64,000 nt of DNA, from NCBI RefSeq assembly GCF_025685625.1, contig NZ_JAGSYI010000001.1, positions 2,399,147 through 2,463,146 on the forward strand. Reading direction: 5' to 3'. Source of the DNA: Acidicapsa acidisoli. Lineage in GTDB: Bacteria > Acidobacteriota > Terriglobia > Terriglobales > Acidobacteriaceae. Under the pieces are notes generated by a model. It worked only from the letters and a program-made list of their open reading frames with translations. It was not told the origin of the DNA and made no database searches. The translations under genes and the position numbers were made by a program. This document shows, piece by piece, positions 48,258 to 55,766 of this stretch (positions within the stretch are counted from its first letter, which is position 1; every line of letters begins with the position of its first letter).

Positions 48258-48460
48258 GGCGCCCTCCTGACCTGTTATTCGCGGTGCTGTGGCACTGTTA
48301 CAAATTTCTCAATTGCAGCAACAATAGTACGAATTCCGCGCGATGGGAAGGCCGCGTTTGCAACGCCGAGTCACGACCTTGCATCTGCTTCCCCAGGCTG
48401 GATATCTTAGTGAGGCGAGTCAAGCAATTCGCCAATCGAGCAATTCCCCAAAAGAGGTTC

Positions 48461-49888
48461 ATGGACGTTCTAAAGCGGCTTTTCGAGCAGTATTACCAGT
48501 TACCGGCCGAAGAGGTTCAGCCGCTACAAGGTGAGCTTGGTGGATCGGGACGCGCCATCGTCCGATTGACCGGCGGACCATTCAGCGCCATCGGCATTCT
48601 CTATTCCGTGCACGAGGAGAACGTCGCCTTCCTCGAATTCTCCAGGCATTTTCGCCGGCGTGGATTGCCTGTCCCACAAATTTACGCGGAGGCTTTGAGT
48701 GAAGGCGCCTATCTGGAAGAAGACCTAGGAGACACGACGCTCTTTCAGTTCCTCAGCGCCAACCGCACGGGCGCGGTCATCGCTCCGCCAGCGGTCGAAG
48801 CATATCGCAAAGTGGTGGCGGCATTGCCGCGTTTTCAAGTCGAAGCGGGCCGCGATTTGAATTACAAAGTCTGTTATCCGCGCGCCAGCTTCGACCGCCA
48901 GTCCATCGCCTGGGATCTGAACTACTTCAAGTACTATTTTCTCCGGCTCTCCGGAGTGCCGTTTAACGAACAGGCGCTGGAGCATGATTTCAGCCGTTTG
49001 ACCAAGCTTCTGCTGGGCGCGAACCATGACTATTTTCTGTATCGGGATTTCCAGTCGCGCAATGTGATGCTGCGCGACGGACAGCCATTTTTTCTCGACT
49101 ATCAGGGCGGCCGCAAAGGCGCACTGCAATACGACATTGCCTCGCTTCTCTACGATGGCAAGGCCGATCTTCCGCCAGAGCTGCGCCAGGAACTGCTCGA
49201 TCATTACCTCGATTGCCTTTCCAATTACATTGACGTCGATCGCGCAGCCTTCATGGAGCACTACTACGCCTACGTGTACATCCGCATCCTGCAGGCTTTG
49301 GGCGCATACGGTTTCCGGGGCTTCTACGAACGCAAGGCGCACTTCCTGCAGAGCGTGCCCTACGCGCTCAAAAACCTGCGCTGGCTCGCCCACAACGTCA
49401 AGCTGCCTGTTGCCCTTCCCGCTCTCATGGACGCGGTGAATGCCATGCTGGCGTCCGATAAACTCCAGGGTCTTGCATCCTCCGCCGACAAATTGACGGT
49501 ACGCATCTTCAGTTTCTCCTTCCACCGTCAAGCTCCCACGGATGACTCCGGCAATGGGGGCGGATTTGTCTTCGATGGCCGCAGTCTTCCAAATCCCGGC
49601 AGGGAAGAACAGTTCCGCCCGCTGACCGGCAAGGACGCGCCGGTAATCGACTATCTCAATCAGCAGGAGAGCGTGCACCACTTCTTTTCCAGCGTTCTAT
49701 CCCTCGTGGATGCAAGCGTAAGCAGTTATCAGGCGCGCGGCTTCAAGAACCTCATGGTCTCCTTCGGTTGCACCGGTGGCCAGCACCGCTCCGTCTACCT
49801 GGCGGAGAAGCTGGCAAGGCACCTGCGCCGCAGCGGCGGCGTGGAAGTGGTTCTCCGTCACATTGAGCTGGAGAAGATGGGCAAGTGA
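48461..49888 (+). CDS. amgK: Amino-sugar kinase AmgK fused to a RapZ C-terminal domain
   Basis: 475 residues in two parts. Residues 1 to about 340 form an aminoglycoside-phosphotransferase-type kinase like AmgK, which phosphorylates N-acetylmuramate and N-acetylglucosamine at the anomeric position during peptidoglycan recycling. The catalytic loop is FLYRDFQSRNVML and the metal loop FLDYQGGRKGALQYDIASLL; the usual His of HRD is Tyr here. Residues from about 345 match the C-terminal domain of RapZ: FDGRSLPNPGREEQFRPLTG, then DAPVIDYL, and the hallmark GCTGGQHRSVYLAEKLA. The RapZ P-loop domain is absent. The ATG at 48461 has AGAGG upstream. The stop overlaps murU by GTGA, indicating co-translation. 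The domain calls are strong; the sensing role is inference. Confidence 0.88.
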   Translation: MDVLKRLFEQYYQLPAEEVQPLQGELGGSGRAIVRLTGGPFSAIGILYSVHEENVAFLEFSRHFRRRGLPVPQIYAEALSEGAYLEEDLGDTTLFQFLSANRTGAVIAPPAVEAYRKVVAALPRFQVEAGRDLNYKVCYPRASFDRQSIAWDLNYFKYYFLRLSGVPFNEQALEHDFSRLTKLLLGANHDYFLYRDFQSRNVMLRDGQPFFLDYQGGRKGALQYDIASLLYDGKADLPPELRQELLDHYLDCLSNYIDVDRAAFMEHYYAYVYIRILQALGAYGFRGFYERKAHFLQSVPYALKNLRWLAHNVKLPVALPALMDAVNAMLASDKLQGLASSADKLTVRIFSFSFHRQAPTDDSGNGGGFVFDGRSLPNPGREEQFRPLTGKDAPVIDYLNQQESVHHFFSSVLSLVDASVSSYQARGFKNLMVSFGCTGGQHRSVYLAEKLARHLRRSGGVEVVLRHIELEKMGK

Positions 49889-50643
49889 GGGCAATGATCC
49901 TGGCCGCCGGCCTCGGCACGCGCCTGCGGCCGCTCACAGATGACCGTCCGAAGGCGCTCGTGGAAGTTGCGGGTCATACGCTCCTTGAGATAGCTCTCAA
50001 CCGCTTGCGGACCTTCGGCGTGCGCGATGTGATCGTCAATGCGCATCACTACGCCGACAAGATGATCGAGTATCTGAAGGCCAACGCCAACTTCGGGATG
50101 CGAATCGAAATCTCTCGCGAGGAAGTATTGCTAGATACAGGTGGCGGCCTCAAGAAAGCCGCGCATTTCTTCCTTGAAACGGACGAAAACTCGCGAGAGC
50201 CATTCCTTCTGCATAATGTCGATGTGATCAGCACGATCGATCTCGCTCGCATGATGCAGTTCCATCGAGCGAATGATGCGCTCGCTACGCTTGCGGTTCA
50301 GGCTCGGGAGACTTCGCGGTATCTGCTCTTTGACGACCGAGGCGAGCTCTGCGGCCGTCAAACCGTGAGCGCGGCGAGTGAGGAAGCCGAATTGGTGCGG
50401 ATTGCTGAAGATGCGGAGCCATTGGCATTTTCAGGGATCCACGTCATCTCACCGCGCCTTTTCTCGAAAATGGAAGAGGACGGCGTATTTTCCATTATTT
50501 CCACGTACCTGCGCCTCGCGGCCCGCGAAGAAAAAATCCTCGCTTTTCGCGCGGACGATTCGTATTGGCGCGACCTGGGCAGGCCGGAGCACATTCTGCA
50601 GGCAGCCGAGGATATCCGCGACGGGCGGTATTCACTGGCTTGA
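49885..50643 (+). CDS. murU: Nucleotidyltransferase, MurU-like (MurNAc-1-phosphate uridylyltransferase)
   Basis: 252 residues of the sugar-phosphate nucleotidyltransferase fold. The nucleotide-binding signature MILAAGLGTRLRPLTDDRPKA opens the protein, and LLHNVDVISTIDL and WRDLGRPEHILQAAEDI follow. In Pseudomonas, AmgK and MurU convert recycled MurNAc to UDP-MurNAc, bypassing de novo synthesis and fosfomycin-sensitive MurA. Overlap with the AmgK-like gene makes that role likely here. The length is close to MurU (about 225 residues) and far shorter than GlmU. The GTG at 49885 overlaps the previous stop; an ATG three codons later is possible. Confidence 0.88.
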   Translation: MRAMILAAGLGTRLRPLTDDRPKALVEVAGHTLLEIALNRLRTFGVRDVIVNAHHYADKMIEYLKANANFGMRIEISREEVLLDTGGGLKKAAHFFLETDENSREPFLLHNVDVISTIDLARMMQFHRANDALATLAVQARETSRYLLFDDRGELCGRQTVSAASEEAELVRIAEDAEPLAFSGIHVISPRLFSKMEEDGVFSIISTYLRLAAREEKILAFRADDSYWRDLGRPEHILQAAEDIRDGRYSLA

Positions 50644-52882: not shown

Positions 52883-53311
52883 CGTCTGCCCCTGATTGTG
52901 GAGAGGATGTTAGCACGATTGAGCATCGTTAGTTGTATCGGAAATGTCATCGCCTTTTGCGATATGGAACCGAAATATATCTCTCCATGATTGGAACGCA
53001 CGAGAAGCAATCTGGATTCGAACCAAACCAGTTAAGTAGCGCCAACGCTCCGACGGCTCTGGGATACAATCGAGCGAAGGTTGACAGCCTTGGACATTGA
53101 CCTCCCTTGTCATAAACCTTGTCTTGAAGCTTGTCATGAATTTGGCAATGAATCCTGTCATGAAAGCTACGGCATCTCAGATGACTTGGACATATCCACT
53201 TTACGGCTGGCGCTGCTGTCCGGTTAGCGTTTTTTGTGCCTGTCAGAGGCATCGGGTGCAGCGGGGGCAGCAGGTGGGAGTAGCAGCGATTTGACCCCTA
53301 TTTTCAAGCAC
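52883..53311. other. Divergent intergenic region with a 12-bp repeat array
   Basis: 429 bases between the VWA operon and the amidase operon. Besides the repeats at 53106-53165 I see no supported gene. Frames exist on both strands through the repeats but lack ribosome-binding sites. Promoters for both operons should lie here. Confidence 0.5.
53106..53165. repeat. Five 12-bp direct repeats, consensus CTTGTCATGAAT
   Basis: Five units at exact 12-base spacing: CTTGTCATAAAC (53106), CTTGTCTTGAAG (53118), CTTGTCATGAAT (53130), TTGGCAATGAAT (53142) and CCTGTCATGAAA (53154). They lie about 150 bases before the amidase start, in a region shared with the divergent VWA operon. The array could be an operator array or a decaying minisatellite. 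The spacing is a multiple of three, so it would read as a tetrapeptide repeat if translated. Confidence 0.75.
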
Positions 53312-54154
53312 ATGCTGAATCGCGTTGCGCTCTGTTTTATTGCCGCCGGCGTGGCAGGGACGCTAATTTGTTCGGGACTCGGCCAGCGTCCGGCAGGTTC
53401 CGTCGGCCAGAGCGTTCCCGCACCGCTGCAAAAGACCGCTCCCCCCGCACGGTTTGTGGTCGTGGTGGATGCCGCGCATGGCGGGGATGACGGCGGAGGC
53501 CAGCTTGGCGCTTCCGTCGCCGAGAAGACCGTGACGCTGGCGCTGAGCGTGCGGCTGCGCTCTCTCCTGACGGCGCGAGGATTCACGGTAGTGACCACTC
53601 GCGAGGGAAATGTGAACCTGAACAGCGACGCGAGGGCGCAGATCGCAAACCATGCCACAGCGGCCACAACAGCCTCGGGTGGCGCGGCTTGCCTCAGCCT
53701 CCATGCCTCCGAGGCTGGATCAGGGGTGCATATATTTGTTACTTCGCTCGCTCCGGCCCAGTCAGCGCGATTTCTGGCATGGAAGACGGCGCAATCGGCA
53801 TACGTCGCCCGAAGCCTGAAGCTGGCCGGGACGGTCAACAGCGCCTTCGAGCACAGTTCCCCTCCAACCGAGGGTGAGAACAGCGACGCAAATGCCGGGC
53901 CGATTCCGGCGACGCTCGCGCGGGCTTCTCTGCCGGGCGTCGATAGCATGACCTGTCCGGCAGTGGCCATCGAGGTTGCGCCCATTCGCGGCGCAGACCG
54001 GAAGGTGGTGACCGACGTGACCGACCCGCAGTATCAGACGCAGATCGTGGAGACGCTGGCTGCTGCCCTGCTGGAATGGAAGACGGACGAGGAGACAGAT
54101 TCCCGGCCCGACTCGCGGCCAGACTCGCATTTGGTCGGAGGACGGCTGCCATGA
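53312..54154 (+). CDS. N-acetylmuramoyl-L-alanine amidase (Amidase_3 type)
   Basis: Zinc amidase that cuts the bond between MurNAc and the stem peptide; exported. 280 residues from the ATG at 53312, which gives a clean signal peptide (MLNRVALCFIAAGVAGTLI); a TTG at 53234 would add 26 residues. Visible Amidase_3 landmarks are FVVVVDAAHGGDDGG (zinc His), SVAEKTVTLALSVRLRSLLT (zinc Glu), CLSLHASEAGSGVHIFV (second His) and CPAVAIEVAP (catalytic Glu region). The canonical DPGHGG reads DAAHGG. Its stop overlaps the GerMN start (ATGA). The amidase-GerMN-MurI order recurs in other bacteria. Confidence 0.85.
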   Translation: MLNRVALCFIAAGVAGTLICSGLGQRPAGSVGQSVPAPLQKTAPPARFVVVVDAAHGGDDGGGQLGASVAEKTVTLALSVRLRSLLTARGFTVVTTREGNVNLNSDARAQIANHATAATTASGGAACLSLHASEAGSGVHIFVTSLAPAQSARFLAWKTAQSAYVARSLKLAGTVNSAFEHSSPPTEGENSDANAGPIPATLARASLPGVDSMTCPAVAIEVAPIRGADRKVVTDVTDPQYQTQIVETLAAALLEWKTDEETDSRPDSRPDSHLVGGRLP

Positions 54155-54798
54155 TTCCGCGCTATCAAAAGATTGTCTTCGTGGTGTTGCTGGTGGTTTC
54201 AATCGTCATGGGCACGATCCTCGTGCGTCTGCGGGAACAGGCGCATGATCGCCTCCTGAAAGGCGAAGATCTCGCGCCGACGGTAGCCCCGGCGGTGGCT
54301 CCGGCCGAGCAGGCCACTCTAGTTGTGGCTAATGATTCCGATGGCACCCTCGTCGAAGAAGCGCAGTCGCTGCCGCTTCCCAGGGACGCCGAGGCGCGGG
54401 CGAGAGCCTTGTTGGATAAACTGCTTGAGATGTATGCTGGCGCGGGTTCCCTGCATCCGGTCCCCGGCGCTCCCAAGGCGGTGTTGCAGGTCTTTCTGTT
54501 ACCTGTCGCTCGCGCCTCGGAGGCGAAACTCCCAAACGGCGGACAATTGGCGGTAGTAGATCTGGCCGGGGCGTTTGCGGATGGACATCCATCCGGTATC
54601 TTGACCGAGTCTCTGACCGTGGAGTCGATCTGTGGCACTCTGCGCGCAAATCTGCCGCAGATTACCGAGGTTCGCTTTCTGGTTGACGGGCAGCCGAGGG
54701 CGACACTGGCGGGCCATGCCGACCTGACGCGGACCTATCTGACGGCGGATTCGCTGGCAAGTGCAGGAACCACCAGCAACCCTGTACCCCAGCCTTGA
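54151..54798 (+). CDS. GerMN-domain membrane-anchored protein
   Basis: 215 residues: an N-terminal anchor (IVFVVLLVVSIVMGTILV), a linker, and a C-terminal GerMN domain (about 75-205; KAVLQVFLLPVA, GGQLAVVDLAGAFADGHPSG, TEVRFLVDGQPRATLAGH). GerM in Bacillus is needed for sporulation and germination; in non-spore-formers the domain goes with peptidoglycan-remodelling genes. GGAGGACGG precedes the ATG at 54151, and the gene overlaps the amidase stop. Direct partner of the amidase by context only. Confidence 0.88.
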   Translation: MIPRYQKIVFVVLLVVSIVMGTILVRLREQAHDRLLKGEDLAPTVAPAVAPAEQATLVVANDSDGTLVEEAQSLPLPRDAEARARALLDKLLEMYAGAGSLHPVPGAPKAVLQVFLLPVARASEAKLPNGGQLAVVDLAGAFADGHPSGILTESLTVESICGTLRANLPQITEVRFLVDGQPRATLAGHADLTRTYLTADSLASAGTTSNPVPQP

Positions 54799-54848
54799 AC
54801 CGGTCTTGAACCTGCTTTAAACCAGCCTTGAATCAGATTTGAACAACC
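54794..54848. repeat. Five 11-bp direct repeats filling the gerM-murI junction
   Basis: Units at exact 11-base spacing: CTTGAACCGGT (54794), CTTGAACCTGC (54805), TTTAAACCAGC (54816), CTTGAATCAGA (54827) and TTTGAACAACC (54838). The array starts inside the gerM stop codon and ends immediately before the murI ATG at 54849, so the whole junction is repeat. The 11-base period is close to one helical turn. Confidence 0.8.
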
Positions 54849-55766
54849 ATGGACGATGGAGAGAAATGCGTGAATAGTCGCGAGGAAAGGACGGAAGGAA
54901 CTGGTTCCGGGCCGGTAATTGGAGTCTTTGATTCTGGATTCGGCGGTCTCACCGTGCTCAAAGCGCTCCTGTGGCGGATGCCCGGCGCGCGATTTGTCTT
55001 CCTGGGAGATACTGCCCGTCTGCCCTACGGCTCCAAGTCCCGCCGGACAATTGCACGGTACGCGGCCGAGAGCGCACGCTTCCTGGTGAACCAGCAGGGC
55101 GCGGAGTTTCTCGTGATTGCCTGCAACACAGCCAGCGCGCTCGCGTTGGATGCTATTCAGGAAGCGGTGCCGATCCCGGTGCTTGGCGTGATCGAGCCTG
55201 GGGCCGCTGCCGCTGCGCTGGCTTCGAAAACAAAAGATGTTTTGGTCATCGCCACCGAGGCTACGGTCGCGAGCCATGCCTATGCGGCGGCCTGCCGGAC
55301 GCGGGGCTTGCGCGCAGTTGAAAAAGCCTGTCCGCTACTTGTCCCACTCGTGGAAGAGGGATGGATCGAACATCCGGTCACTGCCGAGGTGGCCAGAATT
55401 TACCTGAATGAAGTACTGGAGGAGGCTGCGGCTGCGCGGCAATCTCCGGATACGCTCGTGCTCGGCTGCACGCATTATCCGCTCCTGCGCGGCTTGCTTG
55501 AGCGCGAGATTCTCGAACTGTCCACGTCAACCGCAATTCGGGTCATCGATTCGGCCGAGGCGACGGCCGAGGCTGCGTCGCAACTGGTCGCTGAGGTCTC
55601 AAAAGCTGGAGCTGGCTCCAGAACTGAGTTATCCGCATCCGGAAGTCCCGGAAATCCATCCATCCACTGCTTCGCGACCGATTCCGTGGAGAAGTTTGAG
55701 CGCCTGGGCTCGCGGTTTCTTGGCCTGCAGGTAGGAAAAGTCGAACTGGTCGACCTGGGCGGTTAG
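54849..55766 (+). CDS. murI: Glutamate racemase
   Basis: Makes D-glutamate for peptidoglycan. 305 residues with GVFDSGFGGLTVLKAL (about 25-40), catalytic cysteines C92 in VIACNTASALAL and C207 in LGCTHYPLLRG, and PYGSKSRRTI at 59-68. These two cysteines are the acid/base pair of the family. The start is ambiguous: ATG at 54849 directly abuts the repeat array, while GTG at 54870 has GGAGAG at a good distance and loses seven residues. Third gene of the amidase-GerMN-MurI group. Confidence 0.95.
   Translation: MDDGEKCVNSREERTEGTGSGPVIGVFDSGFGGLTVLKALLWRMPGARFVFLGDTARLPYGSKSRRTIARYAAESARFLVNQQGAEFLVIACNTASALALDAIQEAVPIPVLGVIEPGAAAAALASKTKDVLVIATEATVASHAYAAACRTRGLRAVEKACPLLVPLVEEGWIEHPVTAEVARIYLNEVLEEAAAARQSPDTLVLGCTHYPLLRGLLEREILELSTSTAIRVIDSAEATAEAASQLVAEVSKAGAGSRTELSASGSPGNPSIHCFATDSVEKFERLGSRFLGLQVGKVELVDLGG

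Follow-up and report, generated by a model that had tools for sequence, protein, structure and literature searches.

The 64,000-nucleotide stretch of Acidicapsa acidisoli DNA analysed here (the window) carries, at 48461..49888 on the forward strand, a gene that joins an AmgK-like amino-sugar kinase to the C-terminal domain (CTD) of RapZ. The gene is a single uninterrupted open reading frame (ORF) of 475 aa with no internal stops, preceded by a ribosome-binding-like AGAGG (48453-48457, +) and opening at a start codon, 48461, that is common to relatives P0004-P0006. Pfam placed APH (PF01636) at residues 51-250 (E 4e-12) and RapZ_C (PF22740) at residues 346-470 (E 3.2e-34, 118 bits against a cut-off of 27), and a sequence search of the PDB matched residues 53-324 to the APH kinase 3csv (E 1.1e-16) and residues 345-472 to the E. 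coli RapZ CTD, 5o5s (E 1.4e-20). A reading of this DNA made from its letters alone (the sequence-only reading) had proposed the same pairing, with the P-loop domain of RapZ missing, and both points are borne out: a significant RapZ_C match lies beyond residue 340, and residues of about 1-310 are of APH type in place of the N-terminal P-loop domain. The NCBIfam RapZ model scored the fusion at 111 bits, below its cut-off of 244, and the AmgK models scored it at 55.9 and 41.7 bits, below cut-offs of 500 and 550.

Within the kinase part (48461..49390, +; delimited by Pfam, the PDB match and the model described below), the catalytic loop YRDFQSRN, with D196 and N201, lies at 49040..49063 (+) and D213 at 49097-49099 (+). 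Residues R195, D196, F197, N201 and D213 are invariant in 57/57 aligned fusions, and the roles of the catalytic Asp, the Asn and the metal Asp are established for the APH fold. An AlphaFold2 model of the full fusion built with 57 sequences (mean predicted local distance difference test score, pLDDT, 91.7; predicted template modelling score, pTM, 0.71) separates the kinase from RapZ_C (49496..49870, +) by a flexible linker at residues 340-342 (49478..49486, +), where pLDDT falls under 50. Modelled alone, RapZ_C reached a pLDDT of 93.1 and a pTM of 0.89; Foldseek matched this model best to an E. coli RapZ chain (E 1.2e-10), and all 15 matches with E up to 0.001 were RapZ chains.

The next gene, at 49885..50643 (+), encodes a MurU-like sugar-1-phosphate uridylyltransferase, as identified by ORF, Pfam and NCBIfam searches. 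Its GTG start sits in the stop of the fusion, leaving 49885-49888 common to both genes, and MurU is the best of 42 NCBIfam models for its product (135 bits, below the curated cut-off of 250). The link between the two genes recurs well outside the window: counting genes on the same strand within 500 bases, and loci uncut by a contig edge, we found a MurU-like gene directly downstream in 66/85 loci (window included), 32 of them with the four-base overlap. No such gene was found directly downstream in 19/85; these loci (L035 and 18 others) belong largely to Bacteroidales and relatives.

The sequence-only reading had been worded as if the architecture were special to the source genome; a scan of public genomes showed it to be widespread. 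At least 508 relatives were confirmed, of which the best 80 were analysed, and the fusion is present in Acidobacteriota, Elusimicrobiota, Bacteroidota, Ignavibacteriota, Calditrichota and Neomarinimicrobiota, all represented among the best 80 together with Opitutia, one Deferribacteres-labelled bin and other bins, as well as in Verrucomicrobiota. Kinase and RapZ_C stand in one frame at 78/80 loci from other genomes, which rules out a frameshift artefact; one of the two exceptions is broken by a contig edge (L059) and the other has its parts in different frames (L116). In L116, from a Calditrichaceae bin, the kinase frame stops after 339 aa and RapZ_C occupies a separate frame, which could reflect either a further split or a sequencing frameshift.

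Closer to the window, a search of 149 Acidobacteriota genomes found the full-length fusion in 4/15 genomes of the window's family (the source genome among them) and, among the matches listed, nowhere in the other 134. In other Acidobacteriota among these same matches, the AmgK-like kinase (24-37% identity) has no RapZ_C attached, and in many of them RapZ_C is matched separately. The source genome itself encodes a canonical RapZ on another contig. We searched 49 fusion genomes whole (45 from the best 80 relatives plus 4 Acidobacteriaceae), most of them metagenome bins in which any single absent copy may reflect incompleteness, and found two RapZ_C copies in 26/49 (Acidobacteriota, Elusimicrobiota and one further bin) and a single copy in 23/49 (Bacteroidota, Ignavibacteriota, Calditrichota, Neomarinimicrobiota, Opitutia, the Deferribacteres-labelled bin and one acidobacterial bin).

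RapZ_C follows one type of AmgK closely in the Bacteroidota, where it occurs in 24/198 genomes, one copy each, with no second copy in any fusion genome of the sample. A kinase-part profile that includes Bacteroidota members (A2), for which this AmgK type scores over 240 bits, picked out 25 of the 198 genomes above that value; another 42 form a group of their own at 90-147 bits. All 24 RapZ_C genomes fall among the 25 (Fisher p 5e-30, genomes taken as independent); the exception, G202, has this AmgK type without RapZ_C and is also without AnmK, the kinase that makes N-acetylmuramic acid 6-phosphate (MurNAc-6-P). Judged by frame length, 20 of the 24 carry the fusion and 4 a stand-alone RapZ_C gene of 133-135 aa. 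Three of these four (L126, L139 and L140) have the gene order amgK, rapZ_C, murU, and the fourth, L136, is unlinked to amgK. With the stand-alone gene sitting between amgK and murU, the domain thus accompanies the pathway without being joined to the kinase. The near-perfect co-occurrence with this AmgK type and the three-gene split operons together indicate that RapZ_C is very probably a third component of AmgK-MurU salvage, in keeping with the amino-sugar recycling context that the sequence-only reading had assigned to the module. The domain is tied firmly to AmgK-MurU and only loosely to AnmK.

In a midpoint-rooted tree of 84 kinases, the fused, split and G202 rows form one clade (support 100/97). 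Inside it, the kinases of L139 and L140 have a supported place next to G202 and the fusions of Parabacteroides and Prevotella, and that of L126 lies inside the fused clade in an unresolved part of the tree. The window's kinase group adjoins the Elusimicrobiota and Opitutia fusions, and the fused-type clade stands apart from the unfused acidobacterial kinases, save for the long-branched L007, whose place is unsure. This topology would fit one old fusion, at least one later split that kept the domain, and transfer of the fused type into Acidobacteriaceae.

Two annotated Bacteroidales copies carry the NCBI name 'RNase adapter RapZ' (L033 and L034; WP_005858754.1 and WP_237923178.1); the Parabacteroides copy scores 106 bits against the RapZ family cut-off of 244 and has no P-loop domain. 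Plasmid records place the fusion in Parabacteroides, Bacteroides, Phocaeicola and Prevotella. Three Bacteroidales 'plasmid' records (OY725990.1, NZ_OY725790.1 and NZ_OY725912.1) contain housekeeping genes, namely methionine synthase-like and ribonuclease G-like genes, both read from translations, and glutamate dehydrogenase; these records look like chromosome pieces. Among 145 Verrucomicrobiota genomes, RapZ_C occurs in 2, once fused (G191) and once stand-alone (G439). Two proteins of that phylum, of about 650 aa (L206:484-2445 and L208:1348-3327), combine an N-terminal nucleotidyltransferase with a C-terminal AmgK-like kinase, as read from their translations, and are putative MurU-AmgK fusions; the same type may account for many other frames, of 570-900 aa. 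Stand-alone RapZ_C genes that carry the insertion of the fused subfamily (GNGGG, see below) also lie away from amgK at L136:1486-1887 (G372), with the kinase on another contig, and at L202:1483-1989 (G439), whose genome shows no kinase at E 1e-10. In the window itself, 2.6 kb downstream of the murU-like gene, a peptidoglycan cluster (53234-55766) holds an N-acetylmuramoyl-L-alanine amidase, a Germane-domain protein and a glutamate-racemase-like gene in a row.

To compare the domain residue by residue, we aligned 79 fused copies (the window and 78/80 loci), 21 canonical RapZ proteins and 4 stand-alone domains, using E. coli numbering; the window's RapZ_C is 39% identical to that of E. coli RapZ over 130 aligned residues. 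Fourteen positions are invariant in all 104: S166, F167, D182, R184, N188, P189, G246, C247, T248, G249, G250, H252, R253 and S254. H276 is kept in 79/79 fused, 4/4 stand-alone and 19/21 canonical copies, the other two being gapped. Most of the invariant positions belong to the loop GCTGGQHRS (49766..49792, +), a phosphate-binding, tyrosine-phosphatase-like element that reads Cys437-x5-Arg443-Ser444 in the window and whose G, C, T, G, G, H, R and S do not vary across the fused, canonical and stand-alone sets. The residues common to all three sets (C247, H252, R253, S254, D182, R184, N188 and H276) have the look of an enzyme's.

The fused and stand-alone copies also differ from canonical RapZ at two places. 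A five-residue insertion, GNGGG (49550..49564, +), the mark of their subfamily, has its last three Gly in 79/79 fused and 4/4 stand-alone copies and falls in a gap in 21/21 canonical ones, and Gly380 (49598..49600, +) replaces the pocket residue His190, a position occupied by Gly in 79/79 fused and 4/4 stand-alone copies; the 21 canonical copies have H, Y, N or F there (His in only 9/21). According to passages of PMC5737377, the E. coli RapZ pocket consists of H190, T248, G249, H252 and R253; the window thus keeps four of the five pocket residues, and the conservation that the sequence-only reading had looked for fails at H190. Of the RNA-facing basic residues of E. coli RapZ named in passages of PMC9841335 (K170, R184, K194, R196, R211, R238 and K251), the window keeps R184 and R196 and shows K170H, K194Q, R211Q, R238F and K251Q, and its C-terminal tail is not basic. 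Position 170 is K, H or R in 78/79 fused copies, and position 238 is Phe in 78/79 against K or R in 21/21 canonical copies. K194, R211 and K251 are variable among canonical RapZ too, and the RNA-binding tail is described in part of PMC7073468 as restricted to Enterobacteriaceae, so these changes say little; among the RNA-contact and pocket positions, only H190 and R238 separate the window from canonical RapZ outside E. coli.

Family and operon membership suggest what the three parts might do. The kinase part would place a phosphate on C1 of N-acetylmuramic acid (MurNAc) or N-acetylglucosamine (GlcNAc), and the product of the overlapping MurU-like gene would then yield the uridine diphosphate (UDP)-sugar. 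RapZ_C would act as a cysteine-dependent amino-sugar 6-phosphate phosphatase that converts AnmK-made MurNAc-6-P into MurNAc for the attached kinase, the job done in Pseudomonas by the unrelated haloacid dehalogenase (HAD) enzyme MupP. That the fusion gene encodes such an enzyme in two parts, serving the salvage of muramic acid (N-acetyl amino sugars) with RapZ_C as its MurNAc-6-P phosphatase, is our leading, if tentative, proposal, to which we give somewhat less than even weight; we lean slightly towards the domain being catalytic in some way. Phosphatase activity has been associated with this family before: the title of a paper on the Xanthomonas homologue HpaP reportedly names nucleoside triphosphatase (NTPase) and phosphatase activities. 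The homologue YvcJ is likewise said, in passages of PMC7525490, to have both activities, and RapZ researchers have likened the C-x5-R-[ST] loop to those of tyrosine phosphatases (PMC7199280). According to passages by Islam and co-workers, E. coli RapZ loses its activity with either C247A or C247S; these authors suggest that the RapZ SH group is perhaps catalytic and describe the ligand in a CTD crystal with glucosamine-6-phosphate (GlcN6P) as 'likely a chemically transformed product' (PMC9841335). Passages of PMC5371407 state that the AnmK product can be recycled by AmgK-MurU in Pseudomonas putida only with the help of the MurNAc-6-P phosphatase MupP, which was discovered among phosphatases co-occurring with amgK and murU. 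Combining the loop, the C247 data, the phosphatase reports and the MupP precedent, we infer that RapZ_C is a natural candidate for the phosphatase step. A broader version, in which RapZ_C began as an amino-sugar 6-phosphate phosphatase of muramic-acid salvage, acting between AnmK and AmgK and taking the place of MupP across much of the bacterial tree, with E. coli RapZ a derived RNA-binding form that turns over its own signal, we regard as doubtful.

Besides the co-occurrence with AmgK, the split operons and the enzyme-like shared residues, the distribution of AnmK speaks in part for this phosphatase. AnmK is present in the source genome and in 40/49 fusion genomes searched, and among Bacteroidota AmgK carriers it is found in 16/24 genomes with RapZ_C against 0/43 without it, namely the 42 with the second AmgK type and G202 (Fisher p 7e-10, genomes taken as independent). 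The second type (L182-L199 and L201) lies in an operon that runs from AmgK through a MurU bearing a hexapeptide tail and the exo-muramidase NamZ to a sodium:solute symporter, an order that Pfam annotation shows in L182; in 15/18 further loci MurU is followed by two ORFs of similar size on the same strand, and the place of NamZ falls in the first ORF after MurU in the six loci compared (L183, L187, L188, L191, L196 and L197). Neither RapZ_C nor AnmK was found in the 42 Bacteroidota genomes with this type, and the operon could serve the import of free, unphosphorylated MurNAc.

A number of observations weigh against a MurNAc-6-P phosphatase. The genomes with the second AmgK type and no AnmK could all belong to one clade, in which case the contrast may represent one event; 8/24 Bacteroidota RapZ_C genomes are without AnmK; and over all 198 Bacteroidota AnmK occurs in 16/24 genomes with RapZ_C and 119/174 without, so that as a marker of RapZ_C it is enriched only inside AmgK carriers. 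In the window's family AnmK is present in 15/15 genomes and the fusion in 4/15, and AnmK occurs, among the matches listed, in 12/63 Acidobacteriota with an unfused AmgK-like kinase, a set that includes weak, partial kinase matches. An exception to the co-occurrence is the Verrucomicrobiota genome G439, in which RapZ_C stands alone and no AmgK match was found at E 1e-10. MurQ, the other outlet for MurNAc-6-P, exceeds its cut-off in 32/49 fusion genomes (38/49 at 284 bits or more) and has two matches in the source genome; being common in fusion genomes, it defeats any argument from its absence. NamZ, present in 194/198 Bacteroidota genomes, does not discriminate either. Tannerella forsythia losing its MurNAc 6-kinase grows better on scarce MurNAc, as passages of PMC7670621 and PMC5790795 report, which does not suggest efficient return of MurNAc-6-P to MurNAc in that species, where the fusion may or may not be present. 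For the domain itself, Foldseek gave RapZ_C no significant fold match besides RapZ, and the 50 of its 127 matches that were listed contained no tyrosine-phosphatase fold; chance-level matches included the bifunctional kinase/phosphatase PFKFB3 (E 1.7 and 2.2). A Pfam scan of 60 members found no phosphatase family, protein tyrosine phosphatases (PTPs) included. Homology to phosphatase folds thus finds nothing significant by Pfam or Foldseek, and the likeness is one of the loop alone. In E. coli, the tested pocket and C247 variants of RapZ lost RNA binding in pull-downs, according to passages of PMC9841335, and because RNA binding was lost too, their inactivity does not prove catalysis. Passages of PMC7073468 give tight binding of GlcN6P by the E. 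coli CTD (dissociation constant 10 nM), which suits a sensor.

Such a sensor would bind an amino-sugar phosphate through RapZ_C and tune the kinase to match salvage to de novo supply. It keeps the regulatory idea of the sequence-only reading without its RNA, and we see in it a real possibility, though clearly less than an even one. Its ligand could be GlcN6P or, after the pocket changes, MurNAc-6-P or GlcNAc-1-P. The E. coli CTD alone binds GlcN6P, as passages of PMC7073468 state; four of five pocket residues are kept; MurQ stands alongside salvage in most fusion genomes searched, where a valve would make sense; and a sensor can act in trans from its own gene. The GlcN6P analogy drawn by the sequence-only reading is nevertheless weakened, as H190 is Gly in every fused copy, H190A inactivates E. 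coli RapZ (passages of PMC9841335), and the best-kept residues are those of the phosphatase-like loop; the invariant residues, for example Cys247 and Asp182, exceed the ligand contacts. Allosteric sensing of some amino-sugar phosphate stays the main rival, and the full-length model, with its flexible linker and uncertain domain placing, shows no allosteric interface either way. Control by RNA contact, which the sequence-only reading had also offered, fares far worse. In its favour, the domain is a homologue, at the identity given above, of the part of E. coli RapZ that contacts RNA, with R184 and R196 conserved and position 170 nearly always K, H or R; yet H190 is lost from all fused copies and R238 is Phe in nearly all, the N-terminal domain on which the tetramer depends is missing, the window gives no Rfam match at threshold, and Bacteroidota fusion genomes hold no second RapZ_C, so that binding of a GlmY/GlmZ-like RNA as in E. 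coli is very improbable.

RapZ_C might instead catalyse another reaction, such as dephosphorylation of GlcN6P or GlcNAc-6-P to feed GlcNAc to the kinase, or a transfer. The 8/24 RapZ_C genomes without AnmK would need a substrate besides AnmK-made MurNAc-6-P, the GNGGG insertion and H190G alter the pocket, and the ligand in the E. coli CTD crystal is reported in passages of PMC9841335 as likely changed; no given substrate is indicated, however, and the MurU partner favours muramic acid, which leaves this reading unlikely. Slightly more unlikely still, and compatible with any view of RapZ_C, is that the kinase/transferase pair acts on a sugar other than MurNAc. The NCBIfam AmgK (56 bits) and MurU (135 bits) scores are far under the cut-offs of 500 and 250; against this, one scanned type-2 pair beside NamZ is also under them, so the cut-offs look lineage-bound, and MurU is the top model for all four MurU-like proteins scanned.

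The fusion is already in databases; its domains and its pathway are known, but their arrangement appears unstudied. In the open-access literature (subscription papers outside scope) we found no work on RapZ together with AmgK and no functional work on the Bacteroidales fusions named 'RNase adapter RapZ'; RapZ with Bacteroides led only to phage resistance in E. coli, and RapZ with N-acetylmuramic recycling to nothing on the fusion in the titles, abstracts and passages concerned. The new point is the tie of RapZ_C to the AmgK-MurU pathway, the phosphatase idea being others' suggestion. The chemistry of the RapZ C-domain is a question raised in the RapZ literature (PMC7199280, PMC9841335), and a clade that has the domain, free or fused, in a two-enzyme pathway of known chemistry leaves a few sugar phosphates as candidate substrates and takes RNA out of the picture. 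If RapZ_C is the MurNAc-6-P phosphatase, a missing step of AmgK-MurU recycling would be filled in several phyla, the misleading annotation of a salvage kinase in gut Bacteroidales as 'RNase adapter RapZ' would be corrected, and an ancestral role for RapZ would be offered.

Among known systems, RapZ of E. coli, with YvcJ of B. subtilis and HpaP of Xanthomonas, has the same CTD with its GCTGGxHRSV loop, whereas the fusion has a kinase instead of the P-loop domain, Gly for H190, the GNGGG insertion and no R238. Cysteine-dependent tyrosine phosphatases resemble RapZ_C in the C-x5-R-[ST] loop, invariant in 104 RapZ_C sequences, and differ in that Foldseek matched RapZ_C to no PTP fold among the matches listed. 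The type-2 AmgK-MurU-NamZ-symporter operon of other Bacteroidota likewise sets AmgK next to MurU, the two overlapping by four bases in most loci read, but is without RapZ_C and belongs to a separate AmgK clade. The Bacteroidales 'RNase adapter RapZ' proteins, such as WP_005858754.1 of Parabacteroides distasonis, have the same architecture as the window's fusion, with a nucleotidyltransferase downstream and 45% identity. The AmgK-MurU-MupP recycling of Pseudomonas and Caulobacter parallels the system described here in its APH-type kinase, its adjacent MurU-type uridylyltransferase and a third co-occurring component; here, however, that component is RapZ_C rather than the HAD enzyme MupP, whose fold the RapZ_C model does not have (only RapZ matched up to E 0.001), so that RapZ_C could work like MupP without being a member of its family, and it shares one chain with the kinase.

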